Positions 3,597-39,178 of a stretch of 64,000 nt of DNA are shown piece after piece. The position numbers were made by a program, and so were the translations under genes. Under the pieces are notes generated by a model that ran no database searches, was not told where the DNA came from, and worked only from the letters and a program-made list of their open reading frames with translations. Position 1 is the first letter of the stretch; each line of letters starts with the position of its first letter. The DNA comes from Acarospora socialis (lineage: Eukaryota > Ascomycota > Lecanoromycetes > Acarosporales > Acarosporaceae): the NCBI GenBank assembly GCA_025617375.2, contig JAMYGW020000001.1, positions 496,001-560,000 of the forward strand, in the 5' to 3' direction.

Positions 3597-4153
3597 ACAT
3601 TCTCACAGAAGATTTCTCTCATATAAAAACTAAGAATTTGTGCTTATTGATATAAAAACTGATCTGAAATGATTCTGATCTTTAATTTTTAAATTGTTAT
3701 TTAAGTTGAATATGATTCTTTTTATAAGAAAAATAATCATAATTATATACTGAGTCTGCTCATCAATCTTGCTTTGAGCTCATTGAACTGACTTACTTAT
3801 GCAATCTGTTAAACTTGCTCATCAAACTTGTCATCAAGTATGTCAAGATATCATATAACTTCTGTCTTGACAGACAATCTGTTAAATATTCTTTTCACAT
3901 ACAAGTCAGTCTGTATTCTATCTTTTTAAATATGATTATAACATTATTTTTCTTCTTCTAGATGCTAATTCTCTAGATTTATATAAGTGAGAATATTTAC
4001 ATTATTTATCATCAGCAACAATGCTTTCTAAAAATTTCAATCATCTAAGAATTGTAAAGAAAATTCAGATTGATGATGCACTCATTTTGTTCTTTTGTAA
4101 ATATTGTGTCAGTTGTGATATCAATTGTTTTGTAATAAAATTCTAATCAAAAT
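3597..4153. other. AT-rich DNA between Copia-1 copy A and the hAT element
   Basis: No gene or recognisable transposon domain is seen. The stretch is depleted of CC, GG and CG like its neighbours. It begins where Copia-1 homology stops and ends at the hAT target-site duplication (4146-4153), so it is part of the older DNA into which the hAT element jumped. Confidence 0.5.
4146..4153. repeat. Left target-site duplication of the hAT element
   Basis: ATCAAAAT, identical to 16,227-16,234. It immediately precedes the TAAAG end. Since both copies are flanked by otherwise unrelated DNA, a perfect 8-bp match at exactly the two ends strongly supports the boundaries. Confidence 0.85.
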
Positions 4154-4176
4154 TAAAGTAATCATTGAGTCAAGTT
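4154..4176 (+). repeat. Left terminal inverted repeat (hAT)
   Basis: This 23-bp repeat begins TAAAGTRATCAT and pairs with 16,204-16,226 on the other strand. All six mismatches are transitions, as expected from C-to-T decay of an originally identical pair. Just inside it, to about 4275, short GACTCAA/CTCAACTC words recur and may be subterminal transposase-binding repeats, which hAT elements such as Ac are known to have. Confidence 0.8.
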
Positions 4177-4299
4177 AAATCAAAAATCTTTGACTCAACC
4201 TGACTCACAAGTCAAGTCAGTCTCAGATTTTTGACTCAACTCAACTCACAAATCAAGTCAGAGTCAATTTAAGTTTTTCTTGATGATTCTGCACTAGTT

Positions 4300-7200
4300 T
4301 CATACTCATTAACTGACTGATTACTAACTCTCTACATTATCTTAGTCATAGTTGTGCATACAATTATAATTGTTAAAAAAACACATTAGAAAGACACATT
4401 AGAAAAAAGTCTTAGAAGAAGAGTTCACATAATCTTCATTATTTAGCTACAAGAAATTTACTAATAGCATCATTGTCACAAAACTGAGTGTTGCTCAACA
4501 AAGATACTTCACTTAATCATGTATGTCTTGATCAATTTTATATTCTTTGTCTGTATTGTGATGCAATTAACATGAATACAGATCAGATTAATATCTGAAG
4601 TTAAGATTAACTGAGATTTGAACTGTTTGATGTACAGAATCTTGATTGCATACTCTCAAAAAACATAACAATATAGATCTCAGCAGTCTCTTACAATGCA
4701 TTAACTGCATCTTGCTGTCATTTATAGTTCTGTTCATAGTTTTGTTCAATTTTCTTGATGAGTTTTTGAAAAGAATGTGTGAAAATCAATGATGCTGTGA
4801 ACTTTTGATAGCATTTAATCTCTTACATGATGCACTTTGAATCTTGAGTGTTAGATTTGAGCATTAAATTAAGAGTAAACTATAACATATCTTTCAACTT
4901 CACAACAGAAGTTAATTTGATCAGAAAAAACTTCTAAAACTTTTTTTTCTTTGTCTTGATCTGCTTCTTGCATTTATTGTATGCTTTGATTTCATTGTTG
5001 TATTTGATAAATTTCTTAATATATTAAATCTGTTTTGACTTCTTCTGAACTGAGATAATAGATGATTTCTTTGATGTTTTGATAGATTTAAGTGTGACTT
5101 TTATTCATGTCATCTCACAAAACTATATAATTGTTAAAACTGAGCATTAGAAAAAGTGATTGCTCACTTACTTTAGAATAAATTAAATGAGAATCTCATA
5201 GAGCTGATCATAGATATAATGTTGATGACAATGTTATAGAATGCTGTCTGTTTTGATTGTGATTATGATTGTATAATTGTAATTGCTTTGTTATGCTGTT
5301 ATGTTTACATCTGAGATGTGATCAGTGAATATTAAACAACAACAACAGTTTATTCATCTCATCACTCATTTCTTCTCTCTCAGCTTCTTTTACATATCAA
5401 TTTTTCACTTTTGCAATTCATATTAGTTTCAATCAACAATAACAACATCATAAAGTCAGACATGCAAGCAGTGTGTAATTTAACAATTAATTCTAACAAT
5501 GATCTTAGTGCTGACAAGAATCAAGATGCTTAATGCACAGCTGCACTTCAAGATCTTTATGTTTAATTAGTCAAGACACAATGATTCTTTTGATGAAGCA
5601 GATGACTCAGAAAGCAATGCAGTTGTATGTTTTAATGTTTTGTTTTAATGCTCAGAGAATGATATACTGATTGTTGTTATAGTTTGAGTTGTCTTTCAAG
5701 AACACTGTGACAAGATTAAATATGAAGACTGTTGTTGTTCTGAATGATGTTGTTGAGAATGATTTTGAGAAAGATAATAATAAAAAAGATAATATTGAGA
5801 AGAATACTGTTGAGAAGAAAGATAATGAGAACAATAATGCTGAGAAGAACAGCAATGCAAATGTGTGTTTTAACACATCATTCTAGAACTGAGTTAATGT
5901 TGAGATACTGATAGCTGCTAAACTGAGTTGTCTTTTTATAAGAGTGATGTGAACAATGACAATATGAGAGAAAATGATGTGAAGATGTGTTCTAATGCAA
6001 TAATTTAATGTTAGCTCAATTAATATATTAATGAACAAAACATAGAGCTCTCATAACTCATCATTAAAAATTCATCAATCTAAGCAGACAAAACAGAAGC
6101 ACATCAATTTCAAATTTCTGACAAAGAAGAAGCAGTGATGAGTTAAGAGAAACTTTACATCATCATCATTTTCTGAAGCTGAAGACTTCTCATTGATTGA
6201 AGAATGATTGAGAAATCACTGTATTATCAAGACAAGAGATTGTTCATTGATGAATTCAAGTTTTGCTTCAAGTAAAACATCATTTAAGTATAGTACAAAT
6301 TCTGCAACAATTCAGATCAAAGAGTAATAACAAACACTACTCAATGATTTCACAACAAAACAAATTGAACATGCAGATGCAGCAGATCAAAATGCAAAGC
6401 ATGTAGTTTTGAAGAAATTGTGTGCATCAAAGAACTGAAAATTGACAACAAAGACTCAGCAAAAAATCTTAAAAAATAATGCTGTCAATGCATTGAAAGC
6501 TGAACACTATAATCTCAACATTTTTAATAAATGTTTCTGAATTCTAACAGTTAGTTCTAACACTCATGTTCTGATCTGCTTATAAAGAAATTTTTTATTG
6601 ATCAAATTGAAATTGAAATACATTAATTGCAGAGACAAGTCAAAGTTCAGAAAAAAGAAGATTGCATGATTCTGTTCAAGAAAGTTTATGTTAAATGAAT
6701 AATTGAAGAATTCAGCAAAGTTATTTCAATACTGATTCTTACTTCACTTAAGTTAATATATTGTTGCAGATTGAATCTGAAGACATTATGAGCAAGTTTG
6801 AAAAGATGTAAGCTGATAATTTCACAGTGATTATTAAACATCAAAAACACATAATCAATTTGTGCAGAGAAAAGCTCTTGAAGACAGTTGAAAATAAGAA
6901 CTTAAAGAAGATGATGAGAAGATTTTAATTGCAGATTGAGAATTCTAAGCATATTAAGTGTAAAAAGCATGAGTAAGAGTCAGATACATATCATATTGTT
7001 TTAATATGTTTTTTTAACACATTAGATCTCAGTGTCAACAAAACTGACATGTTTATAGTTATATTCTGTCATCTGTTGTAAAACAAGTAAATGAAAAGAA
7101 AAAGAGTGTTGTTGCAGAATCTTAAATTCATGTAAAGTTAAGTGATGATGAGCAGTTTGACAATACAATCTCATTAAACAATTTTCTTGTCAAGTCTTCA

Positions 7201-7700
7201 ACAGATACTTCTGAAATTGAAGTATTGTATTTTTTAATTTTAAGTTTTAACAGTGAAGACAAATATCAGAAAGATAATCTCAATGAAGATGAAGTTATTA
7301 ACAATGATGTGAATAAGAAAGCAAACAAAAAGATTAAGATTAGAATTTAGTTGAAGAGAGTGTGAGAATGAGAAGATGAAAGAAGTTAACATTGATGATT
7401 ATGCAAGAGAGAACTAATAATTGACTTAAAGAATCAGTTTGATAAAATGTTACATTTCATTGATCAGTAATACTGTAATCAGCTTGATTGATTTAGTGTT
7501 TGTAGTGTTAAAAATAATCATTAAAATGCTATCAATCTGATCAAATTATATGATAATTTGATTGAATAATCATTCTGTAATATCTCTATTTATATTTTAA
7601 GAAATTATGACTTCACAGAGCTCAATATCATATGAAGAAAAGACTGAATTAAGTTAGCAACTTAGTGAACTCAATGAAAGCTGAAGTTTCATGTACAACA
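4300..7700 (+). pseudogene. Left accessory segment of the hAT element, decayed coding DNA
   Basis: Plus-strand stretches read as Lys/Glu/Asn/Asp-rich protein interrupted by mutation-type stops. 5689-5886 has repeated NNKKDN/EKNTVEKK patterns. A second frame from about 6330 to 7370 includes a stretch rich in Lys, Asn and Glu around 7090-7350. No catalytic motif or known family is recognised; the composition suggests a disordered or coiled protein. 4300-5450 has no persuasive frame. Eight paired TTYTAAY heptamers between 5478 and 7251 lie in the plus-strand sense, while those at 4385, 4850 and 5133 are in the opposite sense, which may mean the leftmost part was transcribed on the minus strand. 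Confidence 0.4.
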
Positions 7701-10560
7701 GTATCATTTAACTTTCTCACACAGCAACTTCATTCACATATTTAATTCAATCTTCAAAAGCAGAATTCTTACATTATGACTCAGACATCAGTGAAGAATT
7801 TTAAGACTGATAAAAGACAACACACTAAGTTGTCAAACATTTATCTAAAATCAATTGAAAGAAATTACTTCTGTAAAATAATGCTGTACAAATTTTCAGA
7901 ATATGATTCATCTTTGAATCAGTTGTTTCTGTCATTGATAAAGAATTTAAGATGTTCTGTAAAAGATGTGAAATTTTGATGATACATTTTACTATGACAA
8001 ATGAAGAAATTAGTTTGATGAAAAGACATCTGAATTGTAAAACATGTCAAAGTGTGCAACAGTTACAAGATAAACAGCAAGATGATTTAGTTTTGACATT
8101 TGATAAACAGATCAGTTAATTACTTCATTTTTTTAATACTGATTTCTAATGCTCATGTCACTAGAATTCTGTCACAATCTCTATAAAGATGTCATTGTTT
8201 ACAGTTAAAGCATTCAAGCAGTAACTACTTACAATCATTCTTGAACTCAACTGATCTTTTCAATCAGTAGAACATTCTTACTTCAAAAAACTTATTGAGA
8301 TGCTTCATTCAGATACAAAGATTTCAGACTGTACAAAGATTGAAAATTTTTTGAAGAAACAATATGAGAAAGTATGTGTTTTCACTCTTGAAGAACTTGA
8401 ATCTCAGATCAAAGTTTTCATAGTTTTGAACTGTTGAATCAGTTCAAATAATCTTGATTTTATGAAAATTACTGACTATTTCATCAATAAAGACTGAAAT
8501 TATCATGAAGTTCTTCTTAACTTCAAAGAACTAAAAGAAGTGCATACTGATAAAAATTTAACTAGCTATATGATTAATATTCTTGAGTTATGAAAGCTGA
8601 AGACAAAACTTCTTGTCATTACAGCAAACAATACATACAATAATTAAACTCTTCATAAACATCTTAGTAAATTACTGAAATGATAAGATGTGAATTGAGA
8701 CTATCAGAAAAATACAGTGAATTGTATAACACACATTATTCAATTGACAATGAACAAACTACTTGAAAAACTCAAAGCAGAGATATTCAATGAGAAAATC
8801 ACTGAAACTTTTGATTTTACAATTCTCACTATCATATCAGTGAATTCTATCTTGTTTGATAACACACTGAAAAAAATACATTCTATTTTAACAAAAATAT
8901 TTAACATGCTGAATCAAATTATCACAGATTCAAACACTTGCTATTATCATCAATTATATTTCTCAGAGACTCAAGCAGTTCAAGTGATTACAAAATGTAA
9001 TTCTTGTTAAAGCTGTTGAGATGATTCAAGACATTAAGACACACTGAAATTCAACTCATAATATGTTAGTGTGAGCACTTAAATGCAGAAATAAGCTTAA
9101 AGAATAAACTTCTGCTCAAAGTGAATTAATGAGTATGCTGAAGATTTTTCATAAAGAATGAAAACAGATTAGATATATTGTCAAGCTTTTGAAGTCATTC
9201 AAGACTTTAATCAATGTATTTGATTTTACTGCTGAGTCAATTATCAATAAAGCATGATATGTCTACAATAACTTATTTAATCATCTTGAAGATTAACAAA
9301 TGAAAGTAAGTATTTGTGAATTGTTATTCACATCTCAATTAAATAATGCAATCAGAGATGTCAAGAATAAGCTTTCTCAGTATTACAGCAAAACTACTGA
9401 TAAACAAGACACATTATACAATCTTAACAGTATTTTAAATTCAAGCATCAAACTCAGTATCTATCAGATGTGTAGTTTCTTTTTAATACTTTAATTTAAC
9501 ATTCAGCTGTTAATAGCACTTCAACATTAAGAGTTCAGCATGAGAATTAAAACATTAAAAATACTATGAGCACAAGTTCAGATTATATTATAAAAGATAT
9601 TATCAATAGTTTGAGATTTGATCAGCTGCACATTCAAATGTCTCAGCAGTTAAAACTGCACATCTTAGTCTCAGAGCTGTCATTTGACTACAATAGCAGT
9701 TCAATGAGAAAATATCAAAAACAACTACATTCAAAGTCACAACATGACTGCAAACTGCACTTGTAAAAGATCTTAATATTCTAGATAAGTGAAAATTATG
9801 AGAAAAGATTAAATCTGTCATAACTCAATTTATTAAAAATGTACTTGCTATATCTATTGCAGAAGTGAATGTTGAATATCTTTTCAATATAATCTGTAAT
9901 GTGTGTCATTATCAACAAAACTGATTTAATGCTGAGACAATTCAGCACATTATGCTTATTAAGCATCATAATTTTCACTTATATGAGTACACAGTCAACT
10001 CAGACACAATCATTAAGATTGATACTGCTTAAAATTCTGACTTTAAAATGTTATCAGTCAACAAACTATTAAAGAATAAAAAGTATCTATCTATCATTAT
10101 CATCTCAGACAATGATGATGTATCTGATGAGTGTTTGAGCAATTTTTATGAGAAGAAGATGCATAAAGCATTACAAAAAGACAATAAAATGAGTTCTGAC
10201 TTGAAAAATGATGATTTGTTTAATACAGACATTAATGTTGTCATTATGCAGTCATCATCAGCTATTCAATCAATCAATATTAAACTCTCTGTCATCATAA
10301 CAGTCACAAATGCTACTCAATTCACTACTTCAAATTCTATCACTATCATTTCAGCATCTACAAATCAATCATTTCTTAAGTTATTACAGAAATCTGTTCT
10401 TCTTCAAACATATTCATTAATGCTGAACATATTACAAGATCAGCTGCTCAGTCTGATTAAATTAACAATAATATTTCAAGAACTCAAAGCAATGCAACAT
10501 AACTCTCAAAGTAAGTCAGACAAAGATAGTAACTCTGATGAGTCACAAGTCAGAAAATGA
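7700..10560 (+). pseudogene. hAT transposase, decayed
   Basis: A BED-type zinc finger reads MFCKRCEILM...SLMKRHLNC at about 7,945-8,045 (CxxC then HxxC). The core follows at about 8,190-8,760: a KAFKQ*LLTII segment, SFQSVEHSYFKKLIEML, NYHEVLLNFKELKEVHT, ITANNTYNN (the hAT TxDNxSNN box, catalytic Asp read as Asn) and NTVNCITHIIQLTMNKLL. TH*NST near 9,035 matches the hAT TRWNST box. IRYIVKLLKSFK and KLSQYYSKTTDK lie at about 9,170-9,400. The hATC region at about 9,810-9,960 gives LAISIAEVNVEYLFN then NVCHYQQN*FNAETI. Reading moves from frame 2 to 0 (9,010-9,120) and to 1 (9,490-9,780), through introns or indels. The last 170 codons (10,048-10,560) are open, with an acidic ISDNDDVSD segment. It acted on this element's own ends; now inactive. 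Confidence 0.85.
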
Positions 10561-10896
10561 TCTTGTTTGTGAGCAGAATTCTAACAATTATTTTTAATGC
10601 ATGTGATGTAATCATGAATTCATGTTAAACTCATGTCATCTTTGAATTTATTCTTGATCAATGTGTTCAAATTTCTCTCATTAATATACATAATGAATTT
10701 TGTAGAATCAAAACTCAGTACTGAAGTGCAGCATTGTGTGAGTGATGCATTGCTTAAGTCTGCACTTTAAGAAGAAAAAAAAGTTCAATAATCAGAGCAG
10801 TAATGTTGTCATCAACATAGTTTTCTCACTTAGTTAATGTTATTGACTTATTGTAGAACACTAAGCATCATATTATGACAGAGTGAGAACAGTAAG

Positions 10897-11205
10897 TCAA
10901 GATGTACATGCATTGAATTTACACATTAAAATCATCTCACATTCTTTTTCTGTTGTCAATATCAGTAGATGATCAAGACACATTTGCAATGAAAAACATC
11001 TTACTTGCATCAAGTCATCATTTGTATCATTCTTCTCACTGATATTGTTCTTTTCATCACTTTTAATCTTAAAATTTAACAATAAATCATCAGAGAACTC
11101 AGCAGCACTCAGAGACTCTTTTTTCATATTATTGATCACAAAGTCATTCAACTCTTCAGTATCAAGCAACTTCTCATTTTCATCTTTAGACAAACAGATT
11201 GTCAC
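10897..11205 (-). pseudogene. Acidic/Lys-rich accessory ORF, module 1
   Basis: This open minus-strand stretch reads TICLSKDENEKLLDTEELND and continues Glu/Asp/Lys/Asn-rich, with no Gly, Pro or Trp. It is homologous to the minus-strand ORF of module 2 (13,769-14,065 and its upstream continuation to about 14,190, which reads IYLSKNEVNDEALNSEKNDN). No family is recognised. The nearest paired heptamer lies upstream at 11,334, in the orientation that matches this strand. Interpretation as coding rests on the conservation between the two modules. Confidence 0.4.
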
Positions 11206-12649
11206 ATCTTCAATTATAACTTACTTTACACTGCTAAAAGTTATTACATCTACAGTTCAGACATCTTTAAAAACAGTAGAGATAATGATGACAGAAATAA
11301 TATAGTTACATGTAGTAGTAAGTACTTTATGCTGTTAAAATATATCATTAAATTATTTACTTTACTTTCATATTTCTGATATTTTCTGAATTCACAATCT
11401 GCTGTCAAAATTCTTACATACTTGCTTAAGAATCAGAATCTTCAGCTAGTTCAAGATTTCACTGTTCAGTCATGAACTCAATTTGCTCTCAGTGTCAAAT
11501 GAAAAGATCAAGATTTCATACTGTGATTTAATCAATCTAAAAGTAAATCTACATATATCAGTTAGTTCTAACACTCAATTTTAACAAACATCATCAACTA
11601 TTTATTTCTTCAGACACATCAATCTTCTGTATCTGCTCTGTTTTTATTTTTTTTGTGATTTTCAAGTCTTTTTCAACATAAAGTGCATTGATGAGTTTTT
11701 GTTGTACTTTGTTTTCATTTTCAGTGTGATTCATCTGTTCTTCAAGTCATTTCACTGTTGACTGTTAATAATATTTAACTAAATAACTGATTATCATATC
11801 ACTCTGTTCTTTACAGAAACAGAACTTCATTAAAATCTTTACTGCATTTATCTTTAATGTTTTACATCTATCTTGATCTGCTTCAAGTCATTTCATTAAT
11901 TTTCTCAGTTTCAGCATCTTGTGATGCTTGATGTTGCAATCACATTTTCTTGCTTGTTCAATAGCTTAAGATCTAAAAGAAAAATTCTTTTAATAGATGT
12001 GTGCAGCAACAGTGCATAAGTGTTAAGAATAGTTCTGTTTCTTTTTACACACTGATTTTACATCAGATTTAATGTTTTGTTCTGATGTTCTTAATATAAA
12101 TAATTGATCTTTGTGTTTCTGCAAGATTCTGATTGTTATTGCTGCAGTATTGAAATCTTTAACTGACTATACAGTATATCAGTCAGTAACATGTTGAAAA
12201 ACATTAGAAAAACACATTAAAAACTATGAGTGTAAAGAATGTTATAATATCAGTTACTTCTTCAATCTAAATTTCTTCTTTATCAAATGTTTCTGCTGCA
12301 GAGTCTGATCAGTAATTAATTGATTATGCTTTGATTTATTAATAGAAGTGAAAAGCAGTGATAACTTCTTGCTTAACTCATCTGCAGTTTCAGTTGTCTT
12401 AACTTTCTTCTTGTTCATTTTAAATTTAACACTTTGTTTTAATGCACAAGTTTTTGTATCAGATGTTTTTTGTTGTGCTGAGAGAAGATGTTGATTTGTT
12501 GAAGAGTTTGTTGTTTAAAAGATGAATCATTGTGAAAGATGCATGTACATACTGTTGTTTGACTATAATATTTGTTTGTTTTAATCAAATTCACTCAATG
12601 TATTAATGTAAATATTAAACAGAACAACATGATCTCAACTTTACATCAA

Positions 12650-13675
12650 GAACATCACTACATCACAAATTACAATACTACAACACACTGACACATCAAG
12701 CAACAAATACAAGTTCAAAATGATTTGTTTTCAATGTACAGTTTTAACAGTCAACATCTAGAATAACAACATCTAGAAAGCTAAAGAGAAAGAAGAAGAA
12801 GATATTCATTAAGTTTAAGTTTGTGCTCAAGCTCAAGCTCAATTCTGCACTCAAGCTCAAGACAGTTGCAAAGAATAAATTCACTGCATCAAATACAACA
12901 AATACTTAGATCACTGCAGATTTGCAGACAGCAAATCTTCAGACTGCATTCAATCTACAATCAGTGAACATTTCATCAACTATGTTTTCAAAAAAAAAGC
13001 AGTCATCAAAACAATTAGCACAACAGTCTGCAAAGATGATCATCAAGAGATGTGCTAAGTCAGATGATATGTATTACTTCATAATATTTTTCAATTTTAA
13101 CAGTTTTATTTAACACACTCTTAATTAATAACTACTCTAAAAGAGATTCAACAATATCAGAAGAATGTTAATTTGTTGATATTAAAACTTTTTTTCTCAA
13201 GAGTTGCTCAACAAATTTGTCTCTTCAATGAGAAGTTGCAAATTTCAAATATTCACTGACAAACAAGTGTCTTACAAGTGTTGCAGAAGACTGTGAAGAA
13301 ATTCTTGATGATATATTTGAAAGATATAGTATGATTGTTTGAAACTTCTGCAATACAAGATTCTAATAACTATTAAATATCAATTTCTGTGCTATTTATG
13401 TCAAGTGTGTTATGATTTAAGTTAAAGATATGATCTTGATTGAGTGATTTTACAAGTGACTCTTGTCTTATGATGTTACATCACTCAGATTTACACACTA
13501 GATTAAAATATATAATGTAGTTAAACTTGTAATCTGCAAATAAGAGATGACTTTGAGATCAGCATCAAATATTATGTAGTATGCTTTTACTGTGACAAAG
13601 TAATAAGTTTATCTTGAAAATTTAAAGAAATTATAGACACTAGCAAACAGACTGAGTCTATTGATATCTAGTCTT
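12650..13675 (+). pseudogene. Trp-rich accessory protein, module 1
   Basis: The first part (12,922-13,113) is open and Gln/Ser/Lys-rich. After the paired heptamer at 13,095-13,114 a long frame runs to about 13,670 (KFQIFTDKQVSYKCCRRL, then a CYLCQVCYDL segment with a CxxC pair). Nearly all its stops are TGA where Trp is expected, so the ancestral protein was strikingly Trp-rich. The same block recurs in module 2 at 15,455-15,915 with matching TDKxVSYKxxKRL and a similar cysteine segment. No known family is recognised. CxxC plus Trp-rich could suggest a small zinc-binding or DNA-binding domain, but that is inference. Confidence 0.4.
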
Positions 13676-13768
13676 TTCATTTTCAATTTATTAAAATTAA
13701 CATTAATAACTTCTGCTTTCTCAATCTTCTAGACAGCTGAAAAACACACAAAGTGTTAGAATGATGCA

Positions 13769-14065
13769 TTAGAAAAAAAAGTTCACTGAATTTACAGAAA
13801 AAAATACTAATCTGTGACATTCATCAAGCTCAACATATCTCTCATCATTCTCTGTAACACAATCTTGATTTTTTTCATCAGTTTGATCAACATCATTCTT
13901 TTCATCATTGTCATCACAACTTTCATCATCATCTTCATCAAATCTACAATTCTCATCATCATCTTCATCAAATTCACAACTTTCATCATCATCTTCATCA
14001 AACAAATACAAAGACAAATCATCTGAATGCTCAATCTTCTTCTTTTTTTTCTTATTCAAATTCAC
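13769..14065 (-). pseudogene. Asp/Glu-rich accessory ORF with 10-residue repeats, module 2
   Basis: The minus frame contains three adjacent copies of a 10-residue repeat of form FDEDDDESCE (13,913-14,003, 30 bp each), preceded by a Lys run (NLNKKKKKKIEHSDD) and followed by DDNDEKNDVDQ. It is the module-2 counterpart of 10,897-11,205. The stop is overlapped by the paired heptamer at 13,755-13,774 in the matching orientation. Acidic repeat next to a basic run is typical of disordered nuclear proteins; no family is assigned. Antisense and shifted ORFs over the same bases are shadows. Confidence 0.4.
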
Positions 14066-15454
14066 AATTCAGTTATCATTCTTCTCACTGTTTAGAGCTT
14101 CATCATTCACTTCATTCTTTGATAAATAAATTCAAATACTCTTCACAGTTTCAAGATCATAATCAGAGCTTTGTTCAATCAGATTCTTAGCAATGACTAA
14201 AGTTGAAATAGTATAGTTGAACAAGATAGTAAGTGTTTATGCTTGTTAGAATGTTTTGTTAGAATACTCACTCAACATTCATGTTCTTGATATTTTCTGA
14301 ATTCATGATTTACTGTCAAAATTGTCTCATATGAGCTTGAGAATTAAAGTTGTCTGCAATTTCAAGACTTTATCAATTCATTAAATATTCAATTCTTTCT
14401 CATCAACAGATAATTAAATCAAGATTTTAATTTATTAGATCATTAAGCTGTGAATGAATCTATAAGCATATATTAGTTTTAACACATTATTTTAACATAT
14501 TATTTTATTATAATGCTCTGCTATTTACATCTGAAGATAAGATTTTCTTTTTTGACTTGATGTCTTTGTTTATTGTGACAATCTCAAAGTCTTTCTTCTC
14601 ATTCTTCATATCTTTGAGCTCTGCTTTGAGTTGAATTTTATGTTCAATACATTGAATTTCTTTCTTAAGTTATGCAGCTAATTTCATCAGTGTGTGTTGT
14701 GCATGAAATAGTGAAATCATATTACTTTGTTTCACTCAATATCATCACTTCTCAAGATCTTCAATGACATCAATCTTCATCTACACTTTAATATTCTCAT
14801 CAACATCAATATACTCTTTGTTCTTTTTGAGCTTCTCAAAAACATAGAATTTCACATTTTGATTGTGTTTAAGAGCTTGATAACAATGTTTGAACATAGA
14901 GAACAAATTTTTGCATCAAATGCAATCTGATTCTGTACTGCAGTGTTTTGAATAATTATTCTTTGATTTATGAGATGTATCAAAGTCAGATTCTATTGCT
15001 CAATCAGATTTCTTGAATGTACAAATTTCATATTTTTTTTCTTTTCTTTGTTTTCAAATTCAGTTTGCAATGCTGTCATTCTCATCATTCTCTTTCTGAA
15101 AGTGAAGAGTCAGCTTGAAGTCTGTTAGAAAAATGCATTAAAAATACTGATTCAGTCTTCTTGATTTGATGCTTTTTCTCTGTCAACATTTTACAAATTG
15201 TTACACAATATTTGATGAATATAGAATGTTTATAAGACATGAGATAATAAAGTATAGTGTCTGAGAACTTGCAAGAGATTAAGTAATGTTTGAATTGCAA
15301 TGAGAGACAAATTGTCTGTTGACTGAAATACTGATATGTTTTGCTGTTTAAAATACAATAATATGCACTTCTCAGTCTTCTTCATCACACAGTACAAATT
15401 GAGAAAATAACTTCTCATTTTCTTCAATTCATTTGAACACAATGATTAGATAAA

Positions 15455-15915
15455 AGAGATGTGCAAAGTCAGATAGTAAGTATGATCACTTTGATATTTT
15501 AATGCTCAGTTTTAATGTGCTTACACACAAAAACTGCTCTACAAGAAATATATTGCTATCAGAAGTTTGCAGATCTGTTGATTTCAAGTTGACTTTTCAT
15601 TTAATTAATCAGAGTAATCTGTACAAATGACAGTTAAATATGTCTTGATTATGTTTACTGATAAAGAAGTGTCATACAAGCTTTACAAAAGACTGTCAAG
15701 ATCTTCTTGATGACTTATCTTAAAGATAAAACTTCATTATTAAGTTCTCTTGATGATCAGTTTTCTGATTTAATTGATAGACATAAATTTCTGTGTTATA
15801 TATGTCAAGTGAGTTATCATTTAAACAAAGAATATAACTTTTGTGCAGAAATTTTATGATTGTCTGACATCTTTTGAATTAATGAAAGATGTGAAACAAT
15901 AAAATAGTCTAAGTT
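15455..15915 (+). pseudogene. Trp-rich accessory protein, module 2
   Basis: Homologue of 13,045-13,670. The frame at 15,660 reads TDKEVSYKLYKRLSRSS followed by two TGA codons where the module-1 copy also has TGA-TGA, indicating a conserved Trp-Trp. It decays sooner than copy 1. A GTAAGT sits at 15,476 and a paired heptamer at 15,497-15,516 separates the upstream block from the conserved block, as in module 1. Confidence 0.35.
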
Positions 15916-16151
15916 AGTAGTAGAGTTATCAACTTATCATGTTATCATGTTTGATTGTTAGAAATAATTGTTAGAAATGTGCTCTACATAGCATATGAAA
16001 TATTATATATTAAACATGATGCTCTATGAGATTTTATAAGTTATATATGATGAATGTACACAAAGTATATATCACATAATTGACTCAAATTGATCTGCAG
16101 ATCAGATCAAAGCAATTAAACTGATTCTAACTTAATTTATAAATCAAGATT

Positions 16152-16179
16152 TTTGATCTGATCTGCAGATCAGATCAAA
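16152..16179. repeat. 28-bp perfect palindrome in the right subterminal region
   Basis: The sequence is its own reverse complement around a central CTGCAG (half-site TTTGATCTGATCTG). A shorter copy of the same core lies about 55 bp to the left, at about 16,093-16,115. Position near the transposon end suggests a protein-binding or hairpin site; the left end has no obvious equivalent. Confidence 0.6.
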
Positions 16180-16203
16180 GTTGAGTTAGATTGAGTTAGA
16201 GTC

Positions 16204-16226
16204 AGTTTGATTTGATGATCACTTTA
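16204..16226 (-). repeat. Right terminal inverted repeat (hAT)
   Basis: Mate of 4154-4176. Reading inward it gives TAAAGTGATCATC and continues into GACTC-type words, then into two copies of a GATCTGCAGATC palindrome between about 16,090 and 16,180. Confidence 0.8.
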
Positions 16227-16234
16227 ATCAAAAT
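16227..16234. repeat. Right target-site duplication of the hAT element
   Basis: ATCAAAAT, directly abutting the right terminal repeat and identical to the left copy at 4146-4153. Confidence 0.85.
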
Positions 16235-17289
16235 GCAATAAGTGTACTCACTATAATCATTCATGTATTAGTGTATTGTGAAAGTCTCTCAATAAAATTC
16301 ATCTTTCACTTCAAAAAAAAAAAAAAAAAGCAAACAGTGAACTAACAGTCAAGCATACTGAACTTATCACTTTGTTTTTAAAAGTTATGCATTTTCAAAA
16401 GATTCTGAATCAAATAAATTATCATGTTTTACAGAAGACTGACTGTCTTGCTGCTGAACTTGATAGTGATAATAATAAGATTGAGAATGAAAATTCTCAA
16501 ACAATATTACAACTCATAAACTCAATGTCTTCATTCTTCTGAACTAATATCAACTTCTTTTCTTAAAACATCAAAATATTCTTACACAGTTCTTAAGATT
16601 TTCTTTAAATTCTCAAATACTTTCTGAAATATCATATTCTTTGTTGAGAAGTGTGATGTTTTAACTGCTTTTATAGTCTTAGTTGAGACTAACATCAGAA
16701 GTTACTCATTATTCATATAGTCTGTGTGACAGAGTATGTAAATAGACAATCTTTACAACTCATGTCAATCATAATCAAGTTAACAGTGTATGTTTCACTA
16801 AATAGACAGTTAGTCAGCAGTATAGCATGAGTATTCTTTTATTTCTCAATAAATTATGAGTCTAAGTTAGCAAGAAGCTTTTCAGAGAAAATGTATACTG
16901 TTTTAGTGTCTTGACAGCTTGATATGAAAACTTAAAGATTGAACAAAATAAATATTACTGATCATTGATACAGAGCTTTAAGATTGAGCAAAATGACACT
17001 CTCAACAGCTTGATATGAAATCAAAATAAGTACTCTCAGTCATCAATATAAGACTCAAAGATTGAGCAAAATGACATTCTTAACACTCAATATAAGACTT
17101 TAAGATTAAGCAAAATGAAACTTACTAACAACTTAATATAATACTCAACAGTTAAGTAAACAAGCACACACACTTCTTCTTTCTCTTATTTACATTATCT
17201 TCTTCTGTACATCTTAATACTTCATTTTATTTATTTTTTATATTATATACTGACTGCTGTCAAAAGCTACATTATGAATTTTGACAACT
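16235..17289. other. AT-rich DNA with a poly(A) tract and ~60-bp repeats, upstream of Copia-2 gag
   Basis: An A-run of about 17 bases begins near 16,316, about 20 bp after AATAAA (near 16,293), which resembles a retrotransposed 3' end. At 16,900-17,155 the words AGATTGAGCAAAATGA and CTTGATATGAAA recur three or four times at spacings near 55-80 bp, a pattern common in promoter parts of LTRs. A Copia-2 5' LTR probably lies in this interval, but I could not find its two copies, so no boundaries are given. No gene is seen. Confidence 0.35.
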
Positions 17290-19320
17290 CTTTCACAAAA
17301 TGACAATTTATTTCAATTCTCAGTCACAAGAACTGCAATTAATGATTCACTTTCATAAGAAAATAATTGATAAATAAAGATCTATGATACATTGTTGAGA
17401 TCTTAATGATTGATACTTTTATCAGTGACTTTTTCTTTTTATTCAGCAATCTTAATTTTGAAAGTCAGAAGTCTGACATAAAACTTTATATTAACTTATT
17501 ATTTATATCAGTGCAGATGATCAGAAGTACATTGCAGACAAGATTAACACAAAAAATATTTGAAATATCTTGAAATTCAAATACAAGAAGAAGCTGCAGA
17601 TCACTGAAAGACAATATTTAATGAAGTTTATTGAATATAGAATATTGACAAATGTATTTATTAATGAAGCATAAACATATCTCAGCAAGCTGAACAGAAA
17701 AATTACTGCAACTCAGTCTGATATAACTGATCTATTTAAGTTTGAGCAACAATTTCAGACATTTCTTCAAGCATTATTTAAGAATTACACAGTGATTCAC
17801 AATACAATCAACACTCAAAACATCTCAAACATCAAAAGAAGTCTGCAGAAGCTTTATGAAAAAAAAACACAATTAAAAACTGTTGAGACTGTCTTGTAAG
17901 CAGATTGACACAAAGAGAAAGACTTGACACATTTATATTAATATGATGTGAAATATCATTATTGAAGATTGTCAAGCTTCAGCAACAATCATACTTCTTA
18001 GTATAAATCAATTAAATGTTTTCTCTGTTGTAATTCTCATTGCATTTAAAACTGTAAATATCTTTTTGCTGTTTGCAAGAATATTAAATTAAAAAAGTTA
18101 TTTGTCTTAATCACAATTAAGTCAGTCAGAAAGTCAGACAAGTTGTCTGTAAACAATTCACATCATAAAGACAAAATAAGATTTAAACACAGAAACAGAA
18201 AGCACAGAGTTTTTAATGTTGAAATTAAAAAAAACAATGACTCATTCTCATCTGAGTCTGATGCAGAGAAAGATAATGAAATTGTTACTCTGTTTAAGAA
18301 AGCTGTCAGTAAAATACTCAGCTTTGAATGAGTTGTGAATTTTAAATATTTCACACACATAATTAATCAACATCAATTCTTCAGTGATTCTTTGATATAT
18401 ATATGATGTTGAAGAATTAAAGTTAAGCAAAAATACTTATACTCTTACTACTATAAAGTAACTGTGATACAGAACAGATTTAGAAACTTTGTAAATTTGA
18501 GTTCAACACTTTATATGTTTGAACTAGAATTTAATCTTTTATCAAAAAAGCAAATATACAAAATGAAATTGTAGAGAAGCTTTGATCAGCACAGTTTTTA
18601 TATGTGAAATAAATATAACAATATTATGATAAAAGTGTCTGAGCAAGATGATGTCTATATAGTTATACACATTGTAAAAGAACTGAATGAGTTCACTCTG
18701 TTATTTATCATACATGTGTTATTTAATTCAGAGATAACTTTTTCAGTCACAGTATCAGATATGAATTCTCAGATGTAAACTGATTCATTAAGCTTTGCTG
18801 ACACTTCATCTTTTGTTGATATTTTGTTTTTAAGTGAAAAGATCAAGATTTACAAGTTATAACATCAACAATTTGTTTATCTTGACTCTGCAAAGCTCTG
18901 TAATCTTTATAAAGTTATAATTTTTAAGAAATTAATCTTCATTGTTGAAGACAAGAAGAATATCTGTGAAGTTTGTGTTCTCATTAAGTTTGTTAAACAG
19001 TGAGAACACAATATGAGCAAGAGAAAGATCAATATTCTTGTTTTGATTTTCATTGATATATGTGATTTTTTATCTCTGTCATTTATTGAATATCAGTACT
19101 TTCTGAAGATTGTGAACAATTATTCTTGAAAGACATGAACAATATTGATAAAATAATGCAATAATGTTTCACAAAAACTGCAAAAGTAACAATTAAAGAT
19201 TGAGCTTCAGATTAGTGTGAAAATGCTTGCTGTACAAAGTGACAATGTTACAGAGTTAAGATTAATTTTGAATGACTGATGTAAATTCTTTAACATTACA
19301 CTGCAGTACACTGCATCAGC
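17290..19320 (+). pseudogene. Copia-2 gag-protease-integrase remnant
   Basis: One plus-strand frame runs for about 1.8 kb, broken only by mutation-type stops. Gag (from about 17,515) has DQKYIADKIN and LLKS-type helical text and ends in a zinc knuckle CFLC-CNS-H-CI*N-C at about 18,015-18,055 (CX2CX3HX4C). A basic/acidic linker spans 18,143-18,331. The protease region is weak. Integrase has HQQFVYLDSAKLCNLYKV (the HxxxxH part), CEVCVLIKF (CxxC) at about 18,975, then FIDICDFLSLSFIEYQYFL and NNYS*KT, matching the copia first-Asp block, and QSDNVTELRLILND*CK with ITLQYTAS for the second Asp and following region. The frame degenerates after about 19,320 and no reverse transcriptase is found beyond. 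It is distinct in sequence from Copia-1. Confidence 0.75.
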
Positions 19321-22300
19321 AAGTTAAAAGTGCAGTTTAAAGCTGAACTAATTCAACTAAATTCAGCTCAGAGTACTCAAAGTTAAAAATCTTATGTCTT
19401 AGTTCATGAGTGCTTTGAGTGTTCTTGAAAACTCTTTTTAAAAAAAGATGCTCATATTTATTTTATCACTTCAAGTCTTTTTAACACATTTTGTGCTGAA
19501 GTCATGTTAACAAACATTATTATATATGTCAAAATTGTTTATGTTGTCAAATAACTGAATAATCTTGTTCTTGTCAATCTTAATCTCATAATTGCTTTGA
19601 TTATGATAGATGATCTGAATATACATTGCATTATCATCAGCATTTCTATTTAAAATTCATTGAATATGTTTTACAACATCAGTTAATTGAACATTTTTAT
19701 TTTAAAAGATTCATTGAATCTCTTCTATTTATTGATTATATCTGTCATAATTGATTCATTGAATTTGCAGTTCATCACAGATTATTTTAACATCATAGTT
19801 GCTCATAAAAGCAGTAACACTTAACAAGAATCACTGCATAATTTAGATTGCAGAGCAAATTCTTTAATGAACAAATTACTCATTACATTTTCATAATTAA
19901 TTTCTTCTCATACTGCACAGTTATAGAACTCTGATTTTTAAGTTTGTTCACAAACTTTCTGTAATTATTCTTGTTGTTCATAATAGTATTTTTATATCAT
20001 AGTTGTGCATCAGAATGCATCTTCAGATCAGTTTTTTCAGTAAATTTGTCTTATATTTAACTCAAATTGATATGAAGTCAATGCAGCTTTTTGACATCAC
20101 ATTTCTTTATCAGCAGTAAATAGTTGTGCTTTGATGTATATTTTAGTTAAGTTTCTGAAACATTCAATAGATCATTATCTGTGCAGAACATATCATTATG
20201 AATTGAATTTAATCTGATGTTGAGAACAGAAACTAAATTATTGCTGAGATTTATCTAATCAATATCATCAAGATCTTTATCATTCAAATCTGTTTTGTTT
20301 AACTTCTATTATCAGCATTGATCAGCTTATAAAAGTAGTCTTTTATATTTATCTTTTCTGTGCTCTTGCTGATAGTTGATGAGATAATGATTGATGTTTG
20401 AGTAAATGTGAAGATCAATGATTAACTTCTTTCAGTTAAGAACAAAATTGTTGATGAAGTAATTTCATCAATCTCATATGTGAACAGATCAGATAAAACA
20501 TCAATATATTGATTTTCAACAGCTGTGATGTTTATTGCTGCTTTAACTTTATCATTATTAAATTATACACAAACACAATATAGCAGAATCTTCAGAATTG
20601 TGCTTTATTGCTCTTTGAACTGATGATATTACATATTTTTAACACAAATTTATGTGACTGATATATCATTCTGAGTCAGAACAGTTTGTTATGACTGACA
20701 AACAAACAGTAAAACACATATTTAGCACTCTGAGATCATCAAACTTCTTAATTATGTACTTTTCTGACTCATACTCTTAAATGTAATGCACAATCATGAT
20801 TACAACAAAAAATACTGAATTGATCAGCAGCAGATTAAATATATTCTTAATATAAACATGAAAGATCATTTCATTCTTAATTCTGACAAACACTGTACAC
20901 ATTAATGTTCTTAATATTATCAATACACAGAATCTTATCTTTAAAGACTGTGCAGAGATCAGCTGTCAAATATATAAATGAATACTACTTATGTTTTTGC
21001 ATGTAAAGTTGTCATCTTAAAGAAGTTTCTTCATATATTTTATCACATCTTTTCTTGTTCTCTACAGCTGTCAATTGTAACTAGATCTGACAAGAATTCA
21101 TATTATTGTCATTAAATGCTCACAGAATGCACTGAATGCATTATAGAACTATAAATGTTAGTTAATTTATACACACTCATAGATGTAGTTGTATACTTTG
21201 TGAACTTCTGACAAAGTAAAAATATTGTTCATTTTTAGTTATCTGTGATTTAATTTATCATCTAAATGCTTCATCATTGTTCTTCATGTTTTCTTAATTT
21301 GATCACTAAGTCATTGTTTATTGTGATCTGATCATGATATACTCTTTAATTCAGCATGACTGCTGATAATTTACATCTTAATGAACAAAAGCATTATTAA
21401 TACAACTGACTTATACTTCAACATTGATCTATATAATTTTTTTCTTAATGTCTTAGTTCACAGATAGAAGTTCAATACTGTTGAACTTTCATTGCTGTTG
21501 AAATTAATGTTATTGTAACTCTGAGATTGAGAACTGACTTATTTATGTTTAATTGAAGAACTTGAGCTGAAAGACATCTGAGAACTTGAGAAATATTGTT
21601 GCTGCTTTGCTCTATTTTCTATAGTGAACTTTGTCTTTATGTTCTTTAGTCTTGTTGTGCATTTTATGCTCAACAGTTCATATTTTCATATTAATATAAT
21701 TGTCATTAAATGAGTTTTTTAAAATATCATTGCTCATAATTTTATCTTGTGCATATCTGTTGTTACAGTCATCAGATAGATATTGTTTAAAATACTTATA
21801 TACTTTAACTGAAGTTATACTGTCTATCTAAATGTGCTTTGTCTGCAAGAATATGTCAGTATGAATGAATTTGAACATCACAAGTATTTGAATGATGTAT
21901 ATCTTTCAAAGTAGTATTGCTATAAGCTTGAGACATCTCTGTCTTAAAATAGTGATGTTGTTAATCATAATTATATTGTGAGTATAAACAGTATTGATTT
22001 GAGAATGAATGTTGTTATTTTGATGCATTGATGATAGATTTGCAAATTTTCATCAAATTAACAAAGATCAAATCTGACATTTGCAAGAGTGCATTCAGTG
22101 AACATGTTCAATGAACTAATCATATTTAATGAACACATCATCATATTTCTCATACTGATCTTTCAACACTATAAATTAGATTCTGTTCTGACAGAATATG
22201 ATTGTTTTTCTTTTACAATATTTAAAAACATTTGATCATCATATCTGTCAGCTTCAATATTATTTTCTCTTGTTTTTTTGTTCTTTCTGAACACAAATAC

Positions 22301-24300
22301 TTGCAGATCAGTGATTAAACTTGTCATCAATGCTGACTATTACATTTATGATACTGAAAGCATCTTTGACACTATTCAGAAAAGAATGAGTAACATTAAT
22401 GTCTGCAATTATAATTGTATTCATTTGAAGAATTTCAAGCTTATTGTCAAAAAAAGATTTAATTTACATTTTCTTTCTTCAAATCAAACTTAAGCATGAA
22501 ATTTATCATGTATTAATATAAACAAGTCTCTTGTGCAAGCTTCTGATCTATTATGTAAACTGTATAAATGTTGTAAAGTGTGTCAGAAAAAAATCAATTT
22601 GTTTAATCTTCAAATTTAACTGAGCTGAGCTTGACATGCACTATATCATTTGATTAGTTTGATTCTGCAAAAAATATGCTTATGATAGTGTATATATATT
22701 GTGATAACATTAATGAGAGTTTCATCAGTCATTCTTGTTACTCTTCTCTTAATTGCAAAAAAGAATCTTATAGATCTCTCTGTATGCATCTTGAAAAGTG
22801 TTGTTTTTCATTTAAGTTTGTTGATAATATGCATGATAATTACTTCAATGCACTCATATATGATTATATTTTCACTATTGTTGTACTTCAGTTTTCTCAC
22901 AATCAGTGATATAAACTTATTGAAATTCAAGTTATTCACTTTAATCAATTCTTTCAATTCTCTGAATACTAACAGATCTTGTGATTTACAGAATATGCTG
23001 TAATTTATGTTTTAATAAATTTATATCATAATATTCTGAACTGTTTTCAGTAATTCAGACTTTTCATCATCAGTAAAAAAGAAAAAACTTGTGTCTGATA
23101 ACTGTGACATATTAAAAAATAATGTCACATTATGTTCATCAGATCTTCTAGAAGATCTTTTATTCTTTATTTATCTTTTCTTATTATAATTGCACTGTTG
23201 AGTCAGAAACATGAGATATTTATTTTTTTTATGTTTTTGAGACATTACAGAATACATTGTCAAAATTGTGATAAATAATTGTGAATACACATCAAAGTAA
23301 TGCTTTGACTCTGACAGTGTTCAGTTTCTTTTTTAAAAGATTAAGCATAGTTATTTAAGTCTGCAGCTTTGACAACAGAAGTGTGTACATGCACTCATTA
23401 ATATTCAATTCATGTCATACAATGTCTTTAGATTATGTGATGACATCAATCTTCTTGTATAACACATTTTGATTTGCTATAGAGATCATGTTGTGATTTT
23501 TGATTGAATAAGACTGATAATTGTTGCAAAATCATGATGATATTTAACTAATGTAAAAATCTTGTCAGTGTTTACTTCATTGAGTTTGACACTTTCTTGA
23601 TCAGAGAAAGTGCCTGTGCATTGTTTCTCATTACTTTGCTCACAAACATAAATATTCTCTTTTTTCTTACACTTCATTCTTCTTTTCTTCATTCTTCTTC
23701 ATCTCTTCTGCTCATTCTTTATGTGATTGCTTGATTTTTCATCTCTGTTCTGTGACACTTTGCTTAATTCTTAACTCACAACTTGTTCATCTTACTCACT
23801 GACACAGCTGTTAACAGTTTCTTCAGCTTTAATGTCACTCTGTTTTGATTAAATAATGAAGAATTTTTTACAGCATGATTATCAACTGATCATTTTCAAT
23901 CAATGTATCTTCACACACACACTCTCACACTCTGAAAGTCATCTTCAGTTTGTCTTTTCACATCTTTTTCTCTGCTTCTCAGTTTCTTTTTTTTTTACTC
24001 TGTGCAACACTTCAATGATTATTCTTGCTGACATTCTTTCTGTTTCAACTCTGTTGCATTTTTGATGACTGACTGAGCAATTAATGTGAGAATAAGAATG
24101 AAAGCTTGATGCTGCTCTTTCTGCAGTGATAGTCAATCAAAAAAATGTTTTACACTCTTAAGTAGGTTTCTACTACACTATCAATGCATAGTTTGATGTT
24201 GAGTTGTTAGACAGTCTGCTGACTGTCTCTGCATTAAATTGAATAAAAACTGATTGAGTCATGCTGATCAAACTTGACTTACATGTGATTTTTGTGAGTT
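19321..24300. other. Decayed AT-rich DNA, no identifiable gene
   Basis: The block lacks CC, GG and CG as its neighbours do. Short frames exist but none shows a known domain. 22,278-22,690 (plus) is the most coherent, including DYYIYDTESIFDTIQKRMSN and a Cys cluster CKLYKCCKVC, but I cannot place it. 23,486-23,692 (minus) has a CKKKENIYVCEQSNEKQC cysteine spacing faintly like a fungal zinc cluster and remains unassigned. No LTR pair, TIR pair or RT motif was found, so the origin of these 5 kb is unknown. Confidence 0.4.
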
Positions 24301-28551: not shown

Positions 28552-29983
28552 ATGAGCTCAAGTCAGTTCAGTTCTCAGAGTCAAAAGTGAGATTCAACAT
28601 CTACTTTAAATATCAAATTCATCACAAAGATTACAACTACTAAAAGCATTAAGTTCTATGACTGTGTCTTTCAACAGAATCTCATTGATAATGATGTCTA
28701 TTCTCATACTTATGAGTATCTGAATGATTGAGTATCAGTGAAGTTAAATAACTGAAAGAATATCAATCAACAATTGTCACAATCTCAACTCTTTCTTTCA
28801 CCATCTAAATTCTCAGAGAAAGTTCATGAAAAATTCATATGAGTGAATGCACATGTCTTCAAAGAGAAACAAGTAACAAAATCAGTGATTTCAGTTATCA
28901 AAGACAATATCAGAGACATCAAATGCATTTTGAAAGAAATTCTCTTCACAAATCTTGATCATCTGATGAACAGCACACTTGTTTCTGACAATTTCAATCA
29001 CTACTATGATGCATGTTCTGAACAACTTGATCAATGAATTTGTGCAGAGCTTAGTGAACACATTATTTCTTTCACACAGCATGATCTCTCAATAGTGTCA
29101 ATCTTTTTTCTAGTCACAAAGAGATCAGATGAATCTTTAGTGATGACTGAATGACAGATCAACTATGATGATGCATTGAGAACTAGAGAGATACAGAGTC
29201 TTCAGTCATACAGACAAGACAAATCAATCTACAACAATTATGTCTACATCATTACATCAATTTATCATGATGACATCCTCAAGATGTACATCAGTCATCT
29301 TTCTCAGTCAACTGATTCTGAAGATTGATCAGAATATTTTATGACTCAAATCAATATCTGAGACATGACTGACAATCAAGAAATCTTTCAACAGAGAGTC
29401 ACTGCATATCAAAATGACATAGACTGAATCAAGAAGCAGAGAGACAAGATGATTAAATGTGTGAACAAGAGAGCAAATGATAGTCAAATCAGGATGTCAG
29501 CTGTTGATTCAAGCTTTGACTTGATCTTTAGCTTTGCAAGTGAAGCTTCACTGAATGAGTTCTACACAATTGAACCTCTAAGTCAAGAGTCTTGAATCTC
29601 ACTGAATGAACACTTCAATACAACTGCCAACCTTTGAGAGTTTGAGACTTCAATGAATGAGTTTGTGTTGAACTTCAGACTCCCAATCAAATGTTTCAAT
29701 AGGGATTCAAAGTGATCACATCAGTCTCAATGAAAGCGACACAACACCAGTGAATCTAATGGCACCAGACATAGCTATTGATCCGTCATCATATTCAACA
29801 CACAAAGCTCTTCGGCCAAAAGTCTAGCCAAAAGGGAACCTGAGCAAGAAAGACTTGTTGCAAGAGAACCAGAGAGACTTGCAAGAACAAAGCAAGAGCA
29901 GCTGACAAGGAAGAAACAGAAGAGACTCATAAGACCTGAGCAAGAAAGACTTGCAAGGGAGGAAGAGGCAAGACATTCCATTT
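28552..29983 (+). pseudogene. Decayed large fungal protein of unknown function with charged C-terminal coil
   Basis: A single frame from ATG 28,552 (MSSSQFSSQSQK) runs 1.4 kb with about 20 internal stops, nearly all TGA at Trp/Arg-type positions. Readable text includes FITKITTTKSIKFYDCVFQQ, NLIDNDVYSHTYEYLND, NAHVFKEKQVTKSVISVI, YRQDKSIYNNYVYIITSIYH and a repetitive end (29,800-29,975) KREPEQERLVAREPERLART, an Arg/Glu/Gln-rich coil. The text has the feel of a multicopy, uncharacterised fungal protein with conserved Tyr/Asn-rich segments, but I give no family name. CC, GG and CG return gradually across its length, so the 3' third is much less mutated than the 5' third. Antisense ORFs at 29,775-30,093 are shadows. 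Confidence 0.55.
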
Positions 29984-30108
29984 GATCGTTGCATATGATC
30001 TTGATGTACTCTTGGGGTCAGATGAGGCAGTGACTTCAGTATCCAAGTACTAGGATAAGAACTCTTCTTGATTAGCTTGACAAGCTTCTGCACTCTACTG
30101 AGAAACTG

Positions 30109-30390
30109 TTACTTTTGCTTTTGTACTTCAAACTTTGCAGCCTGGAAGTGAGCCTTTACTACAATGTCCTCAATTCTCTTTATGTCAATTGAGTTGACCA
30201 TATCCTTTTTATCAGAGTGGCTGTTCTGCCAGTTTTCTATAGCTTTGTTTGCTTCTAGGATTTCCAGATGGAGCTTCATATCGTCATCACCACTTGAGAT
30301 CTTTACTATTGTGGGTGTAACGCGGGCATAGACTTTTTGGACAAAGGCTGTGTCCTCTTCATCTTCTATCTCACAATAAAGAGTAATATT
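30109..30390 (-). pseudogene. Unidentified protein fragment
   Basis: The minus frame reads AFVQKVYARVTPTIVKISSG then MKLHLEILEANKAIENWQNS, DMVNSIDIKRIEDIVVKAHF, ending AAKFEVQKQK and TAA at 30,109. The amino-acid mix is protein-like and helical. Upstream of about 30,390 the same strand collides with the patatin-like fragment on the other strand, so only part of a gene remains. No family is recognised. Confidence 0.4.
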
Positions 30391-30540: not shown

Positions 30541-30553
30541 ATCACAGTCCTAG

Positions 30554-33363: not shown

Positions 33364-33366
33364 CTT

Positions 33367-38790: not shown

Positions 38791-38795
38791 AATAA

Positions 38796-39140: not shown

Positions 39141-39178
39141 AAAGTCAAAGTCAAATGAGAGTGAAGATGAAACAGAAT

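Follow-up and report, generated by a model that had tools for sequence, protein, structure and literature searches.

A stretch of 64,000 bp from the genome of Acarospora socialis (contig C1, bases 496001-560000; hereafter the window) contains, at positions 4154-16226, what is very probably an inactive copy of a cut-and-paste transposon of the hAT type, the complete form of which is ~12.07 kb long and the extra DNA of which consists mainly of element-specific companion genes. The element is assigned to the hAT superfamily because it combines inverted ends, 8-bp target duplications, and a transposase gene with a hAT dimerization domain. Coincidence can be excluded, given that other copies share these ends and are flanked by different 8-bp duplications and that uninterrupted sites paralogous to that of the window element, with one ATCAAAAT, are present. 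An initial annotation, made from the letters of the window alone, had placed a 12,073-bp hAT element with a perfect 8-bp duplication at 4154-16226; these coordinates proved exact, and the ends, ATCAAAAT, and a match to PF05699 all bear them out. The genome searched comprised 31.15 Mb in 38 contigs.

Ends of the Element and Target-site Duplication

The 12,073 bp between 4154 and 16226 are bounded by two copies of ATCAAAAT, at 4146-4153 and 16227-16234, which are identical at 8/8 positions and are represented by a single copy at paralogous empty sites. The terminal inverted repeats are 11 bp long, a length within the range given for hAT elements (5-27 bp; PMC12506042). The left repeat, TAAAGTAATCA, occupies 4154-4164 on the plus strand, and related ends are found in the other copies and in miniatures of 380-391 bp. 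The right repeat (16216-16226, minus strand), which reads TGATCACTTTA on the plus strand, is complementary to the left one at 10/11 positions; further in, the match is imperfect. Both subterminal zones are enriched in GACTCA/GATCTGA-like motifs, with 8 per 200 bp at the left (4154-4353) and 9 per 200 bp at the right (16027-16226) versus 2.6 per 200 bp inside, the motif having been picked by eye after the sequence had been viewed. A search of Rfam gave no match. Right-end-like motifs, AGTGATCACTTTA and AGTGATTACTTTA, also occur at window positions 62521 and 62845, in a stretch of 16% GC, and are possibly fragments of related elements.

Other Copies and the Length of the Transposed Unit

Copies were sought with the first and last 247 bp of the element, which gave 15 and 21 matches, respectively, and were defined by pairing left and right ends by position; where a match stopped short of the terminus, the end was placed by extrapolation, over at most 14 bp. 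In a separate search, 32 of 43 candidates were scored; the copies designated C13 and C5 were absent there and were recovered through their ends. C13 is 12,067 bp and C5 12,072 bp long (the right end of C5 being extrapolated by 5 bp), and each has its own perfect 8-bp duplication, different from that in the window. Two further copies are of similar size, C4b at 12.1 kb and C2a at ~12.4 kb, including an insert of ~0.36 kb. By end positions, C3a, C9, C12, and C4a measure 18.3, 24.4, 36.8, and 43.7 kb and would carry inserts, provided that both ends belong together. At least 99% of the 12,073 positions of the window element are covered in each of C9 (12,071), C13 (12,064), and C4a (11,961). C5 was read at its ends only (3,486 positions), and its interior yields matches to the transposase, to the gene upstream of it, and to modules A and B of the 3′ extension described below.

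Comparison of the window element with C13 revealed 1,389 mismatches in 12,065 aligned positions, made up of 1,367 transitions and 22 transversions, together with 4 indels. Given that the differences are almost all transitions, 12 kb is the transposed unit and the full length of this hAT family, as opposed to the outcome of successive nested insertions. Transversions amount to ~0.2% in C9 and C13, 0.3-0.7% in C5, C3a, C2a, C3b, and C7, and 1.4-1.9% in C4a, C2b, C12, C2c, C5b, and C4b. The copies therefore fall into younger and older layers, and C4a, which belongs to the older layer, keeps an identical layout over its full length.

Duplications were compared for 13 end pairs, a set that omits ends for which no partner was identified (C2b, C3b, C7, C6, L060, L061, and L068). 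Five pairs were identical at 8/8 positions (the window element, C13, C5, and two miniatures), and five more matched at 6/8 or 7/8, with all differences being transitions. These 10 pairs represent six copies of the 12-kb family and four miniatures. Among 156 unpaired end combinations used as a control, which was not transition-tolerant, 8/8 identity was observed in 1, 7/8 in 2, and 6/8 in 9. The initial annotation had named copies of 3-5 kb with the same ends as the sign that the extra DNA arose by nested insertion. No left and right ends 3-5 kb apart were found among the 15 and 21 end matches, several of which have no partner. The short end pairs observed were instead the miniatures, which form two families, one of 380 bp and one of 391 bp, whose ends are related and whose members are flanked by 8-bp duplications (L058, L059, L067, L069, and further positions).

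Insertion Site

The flanks of the element (3854-4153 on the left and 16235-16534 on the right) are parts of one high-copy repeat, into which the element inserted. When 300 bp from each side were joined with one ATCAAAAT and used as a query, 40 of 316 candidate places were scored, and at 38 of these the joined flanks aligned unbroken through the junction with 78-85% identity; the remaining 2 were the element's own flanks. The 38 empty sites are paralogous sites and not alleles, the target having been another high-copy repeat, and insertion of the element was precise. Both full-length copies and empty sites, which the initial annotation had proposed to look for, were found. In addition, window positions 16279-16571 represent an insert-free paralogue of the site of a 380-bp miniature at C3:1704381 (75% identity, junction ungapped). 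The target repeat (window 3854-4153 and 16235-16571) also occurs within the C9 copy of the hAT element, at C9:1093011-1093509.

Loss of CC, GG, and CG

The element contains one CC, no GG, and no CG, where ~717 such dinucleotides would be expected from base composition, and the 19.4 kb from 4199 to 23613 of the window are devoid of all three. Other copies are damaged likewise. Heavy C-to-T damage was observed in each copy or fragment measured, the least damaged piece being the left end of C3a, which has kept 8 CC and 2 GG in ~1 kb. The values obtained for the element, a TpA/ApT ratio of 0.67 and a (CpA+TpG)/(ApC+GpT) ratio of 1.62, lie outside the classic thresholds for repeat-induced point mutation (RIP) of ≥0.89 and ≤1.03, respectively (PMC3828140). 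Here, C-to-T damage has occurred at CpC and CpG and not at CpA, and the classic indices miss the element because CpA is left alone. The pattern looks like the product of a nearly saturating repeat mutation process specific for CpC and CpG, of which the excerpts of the literature searched, including PMC2621366, PMC4014442, and PMC3828140, contain no description. A process this extreme can escape standard RIP indices and can turn damaged genes into seemingly odd Trp-rich proteins.

The consequences for translation are severe. Among the 24,142 codons of all six frames, there are one Gly and one Pro codon and no TGG, TGA is abundant, and 16 codons are absent from all frames. The longest stop-to-stop frame without read-through is 175 residues, such that no intact extra protein is encoded, and many of the frames originally reported overlap on opposite strands. 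The loss of CC, GG, and CG has all but removed Gly and Pro and has eliminated TGG, such that apparent Trp residues represent TGA read through. The Lys/Glu/Asn-rich and Trp-rich CxxC proteins that the initial annotation recognized in the element are accordingly in large part artifacts of this loss. An alternative genetic code in which TGA specifies Trp was considered and rejected, given that TGG and CGA are both converted to TGA and that the unmutated frames at 30554-31576 and 49515-50666 of the window are open with the usual stops.

Within the window, CC, GG, and CG are also near-absent, and CpA and TpG enriched, across 329-29500, 35000-47500, and 54400-64000, with sharp borders to normal gene islands.

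Transposase Gene and Its Distant Relatives

The transposase gene is broken and extends from 7607 to 10584 on the plus strand, in pieces at 7607-8128, 8225-9010, 9012-9476, 9560-9766, and 9775-10584. The Pfam profile of the hAT C-terminal dimerization domain (PF05699, Dimer_Tnp_hAT) matches 9751-9966 on the plus strand. The match was obtained in the read-through of 9697-10032 with TGA read as Trp and scored 22.4 bits versus a cut-off of 21.4 (E = 1.1e-4). Distant relatives of the transposase were detected at 18 places in the genome with 36-45% identity (e.g. C8:409241-411540, C9:218626, and C3:2522432) and constitute a second hAT family. Elsewhere in the genome, PF05699 exceeded its cut-off at 7 places, each of them shortly 3′ of the matched core of a distant relative. 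Six stop sites in the core are common to 4/4 aligned copies, as would be expected if identical TGG or CGA codons had been hit in each. hAT transposases contain an RNase-H-like catalytic domain with an acidic triad and a conserved Trp motif; candidates for RNase-H-like catalytic motifs in the core were spotted by eye only, with a poor structural model.

Putative Companion Gene Upstream of the Transposase

Broken pieces of a putative second gene lie upstream of the transposase gene on the same strand (5656-7360, plus), and parts at 6770-7000 and 7045-7221 were tested. The upstream piece gave 29 matches in the genome, 24 within this hAT family and 5 outside it (E = 1e-4 to 5e-4). Three of the outside matches (C2:2204298, C9:217089, and C3:2524463; E = 1e-4 to 3e-4) are located 1.50-1.54 kb 5′ of the transposase core of a distant relative and on the same strand, the corresponding spacing here being 1.41-1.43 kb. 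The other two are unexplained: that at C5:121566 lies 6.9 kb before the core of a relative, and that at C2:2209531 lies on the opposite strand. Length changes of 15, 30, and 15 bp between copies were observed near 5810, 5831, and 6210, alongside several of 1-2 bp. The piece may be a companion gene or the N-terminal part of the transposase.

Modules A and B of the 3′ Extension

The DNA 3′ of the transposase gene includes a 5-kb part with two related modules. Module A occupies 13916-15877 on the minus strand. Module B (10996-13473, minus strand in the best reading) is an older tandem copy of module A, the coiled-coil part of which, at 11597-12115, was found with the module A reading. The relationship between the two is that of an old tandem duplication, with 59-64% DNA identity and E values of 4e-47 and 7e-39, where the best control gave 8e-6. 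At the protein level, similarity is best in one minus-strand frame pair, which scored 176 bits versus 117 bits for the next best. Module A includes a Cys-containing and then helical piece of 208 residues when read through (14511-15134, minus), for which a low-confidence model was obtained, and an acidic-repeat piece (13772-14236, minus) with a 30-bp tandem repeat at 13915-14002. The acidic repeat is 10 residues long, and its large length changes between copies are of 24, 30, and 60 bp, in addition to changes of 1-2 bp. Taken with those in the upstream gene, the large changes (15, 24, 30, and 60 bp) are multiples of three, which is only suggestive of coding; small changes are expected in dead copies. 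The outer part of the module (15495-15874) recurs in inverted orientation near the left end (4500-4871, minus), with 60% identity and E values of 1e-6 here and 2e-10 in C13. Given that the best reversed-sequence control reached 8e-6, this inverted copy is marginal from the window alone.

Two module A readings matched copies of this hAT family only (14 and 22 matches). The ends of the distant relatives were read in one 1.5-kb piece. At the one relative read, on C8, mutated DNA stops ~0.55 kb past the dimerization domain; of 20 other matches, 17 terminate at the identical base. Distant relatives thus seem to lack the 3′ extension, a pattern that a truncation peculiar to the C8 copy would also produce. 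The extra frames also gave weak hits in Pfam (to ELF, HGAL, Sp-CxC, zinc ribbons, and others), all of which fell below the cut-off and were taken as chance.

Proposed Mechanism and Points That Weigh against It

In the proposed scheme, the transposase would have bound the ends and the subterminal repeats, excised the element, and reinserted it through staggered cuts 8 bp apart; the same transposase would also have mobilized the 380-391-bp miniatures. The upstream gene is predicted to be a long-standing companion of this transposase lineage and the 3′ extension to carry, in tandem duplicate, a coiled-coil/acidic-repeat gene confined to this hAT family. After transposition, repeat-targeted mutation at CpC and CpG would have silenced the copies. 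The most likely role of the companion proteins, at about even odds, would have been to aid or regulate transposition, e.g. as DNA-binding or bridging factors. A broader proposal is offered only tentatively, as a possibility that falls short of being the favored outcome: a hAT lineage may have turned multi-gene, combining a transposase, an old companion, and a duplicated family-specific pair that is needed for, or protects, transposition of 12 kb, in a host the repeat defense of which erases CpC and CpG almost completely and spares CpA.

Several observations count against the interpretation of the element as a hAT transposon with companion genes. The PF05699 score barely exceeds the cut-off; with TGA read as X, it falls to 14.9 bits, and the domain is then matched in 2/4 copies at E = 0.1. 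Comparison of the transposase core with Pfam and the Protein Data Bank (PDB) gave no convincing match (best E = 0.022 and 0.078, respectively), and neither did comparison of the dimerization alignment with the PDB. AlphaFold models were poor (pLDDT of 43 and 37). A search of 5.8 billion proteins, which does retrieve fungal sequences when the query is an intact host gene, yielded no relatives of the transposase (810 of 938 read-through residues searched) and none of module A; protein searches with read-through sequence are uninformative given the loss of Gly and Pro and of most words for Arg. The end pairs of C4a and C4b have no duplication, and that of C12 matches at 5/8 only, its differences being transitions. 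Finally, the codon-position pattern of A/B differences is weak (86/67/96), transversions between copies lack clear codon periodicity, and 1-2-bp indels are present in both repeat tracts of the putative coding sequence.

Alternative Explanations

The alternative that survives best, which we nevertheless consider unlikely, is that of a hAT element with captured host genes as passenger cargo, similar to the histone H3-containing hAT elements of other fungi. Fungal hAT elements with captured genes do exist (PMC6710886), and a 3′ extension that seems peculiar to one hAT family, with the C8 relative ending so soon after its dimerization domain, would be in keeping with such an event. Against this, genome searches with module A and the upstream piece, in which the damaged queries lower sensitivity and a module B reading was not used, yielded no unmutated host homologue of either. 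Moreover, the upstream piece is common to distant relatives, and module A is present in 11 copies and module B in 7. The description of the extra DNA as cargo in the initial annotation is sustained insofar as this DNA looks meaningful and is not supported insofar as it implies a captured host gene.

Rather improbable is that the extra regions are non-coding and that their frames arose by chance in mutated, AT-rich DNA. The weak codon periodicity and small indels noted above speak for this explanation, as do the lack of any intact frame and the overlap of frames on both strands. It accounts poorly for the divisibility by 3 of the tandem units (15 and 30 bp) and of the large length changes, for the concentration of A/B similarity in one frame pair, and for the recognition of the upstream piece as protein in three distant relatives, among which its spacing is nearly constant.

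Enlargement of a 3-6-kb hAT element by nested insertions of other repeats is very improbable and was rejected. The genome is repeat-rich, and other copies have inserts as judged from their end positions (C9, C3a, and C4a). However, the whole 12 kb is collinear at other sites with nearly only transitions between copies, and C13 and C5 are equally long with perfect duplications of their own, the differences among which exclude one duplicated locus.

Least credible of all is a non-hAT element harboring a hAT gene, either a Starship, as large cargo-bearing fungal elements often are, or an element of the Tc1/mariner type, exemplified by ToxTA, which was first filed as a hAT under the name ToxhAT (PMC12506042), given that the 8-bp duplications, short inverted ends, central hAT gene, and empty sites are concordant, that Tc1/mariner elements have a 2-bp TA duplication, and that no match to DUF3435, the tyrosine recombinase domain located at the 5′ edge of Starships, was found in the 20 read-through frames scanned, a test weakened by damage to the frames.

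Comparison with Known Elements

hAT elements are known for having a single gene, and ordinary fungal members such as Restless have a similar type of transposase, an 8-bp duplication, and short ends and normally encode a transposase only. At 12,073 bp, the A. socialis element is, as the initial annotation had pointed out, far longer than is typical: fungal hAT elements are usually ~5 kb, and the longest named before one of 9.5 kb was Gulliver, at 7,144 bp (PMC6710886).

The 9.5-kb element, found in Pseudocercospora fijiensis and relatives, contains histone H3 and has 20-bp inverted ends, with the extra coding sequence present in one or two copies (PMC6710886). It resembles the element described here in being a hAT of unusual length with 8-bp duplications, extra coding sequence, and C-to-T inactivation. 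By contrast, its histone H3 is recognizable and transcript-derived, it is present in 133 full-length copies, its RIP is CpA-biased, and no dimerization domain was reported for it (PMC6710886), whereas the present element is 12 kb long, has few copies and no recognized host gene, and is affected by CpC/CpG-biased mutation. The further suggestion that a large cargo-bearing hAT would be a distinct class of mobile element is not needed, because cargo-bearing fungal hAT elements had already been published (PMC6710886); the present element is apparently a larger, multi-gene variant of these.

ToxhAT, of 14 kb, has been renamed ToxTA and is not now counted among the hAT elements (PMC12506042). It resembles the present element in being a fungal DNA transposon of large size that carries extra genes, and it has suffered RIP in two species. 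It is unlike it in having a 2-bp TA duplication and 74-bp ends, in being a single-copy and probably non-autonomous Tc1/mariner element, and in moving a virulence gene (PMC12506042). The distant hAT relatives within the genome share the transposase lineage, and at least three carry the upstream piece at similar spacing, but they gave no module A matches, and their 3′ part seems to end ~0.55 kb past the dimerization domain. No multi-gene fungal hAT architecture was found in the excerpts of open-license literature searched. If the interpretation advanced here is correct, a 12-kb hAT element with conserved companion genes would mean that the superfamily can turn multi-gene in fungi and would offer a way to test a role of such genes in mobility.

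Unmutated Genes in the Window

Two unmutated gene islands are present in the window, at 29500-35000 and 47500-54000. The second contains a glycosyltransferase-31-like gene on the minus strand (49515-50666), relatives of which occur in many named fungi and for many of which PF02434 is precomputed. The closest named relatives of an intact gene in the window, with ~61-65% identity, are from filamentous ascomycetes such as Penicillium, Seiridium, and Neoarthrinium, in keeping with a host that most probably belongs to the Pezizomycotina. At the edge of mutated DNA, positions 35835-36416 on the plus strand comprise an open frame of 193 residues with Cys/Ser/Leu-rich repeats.

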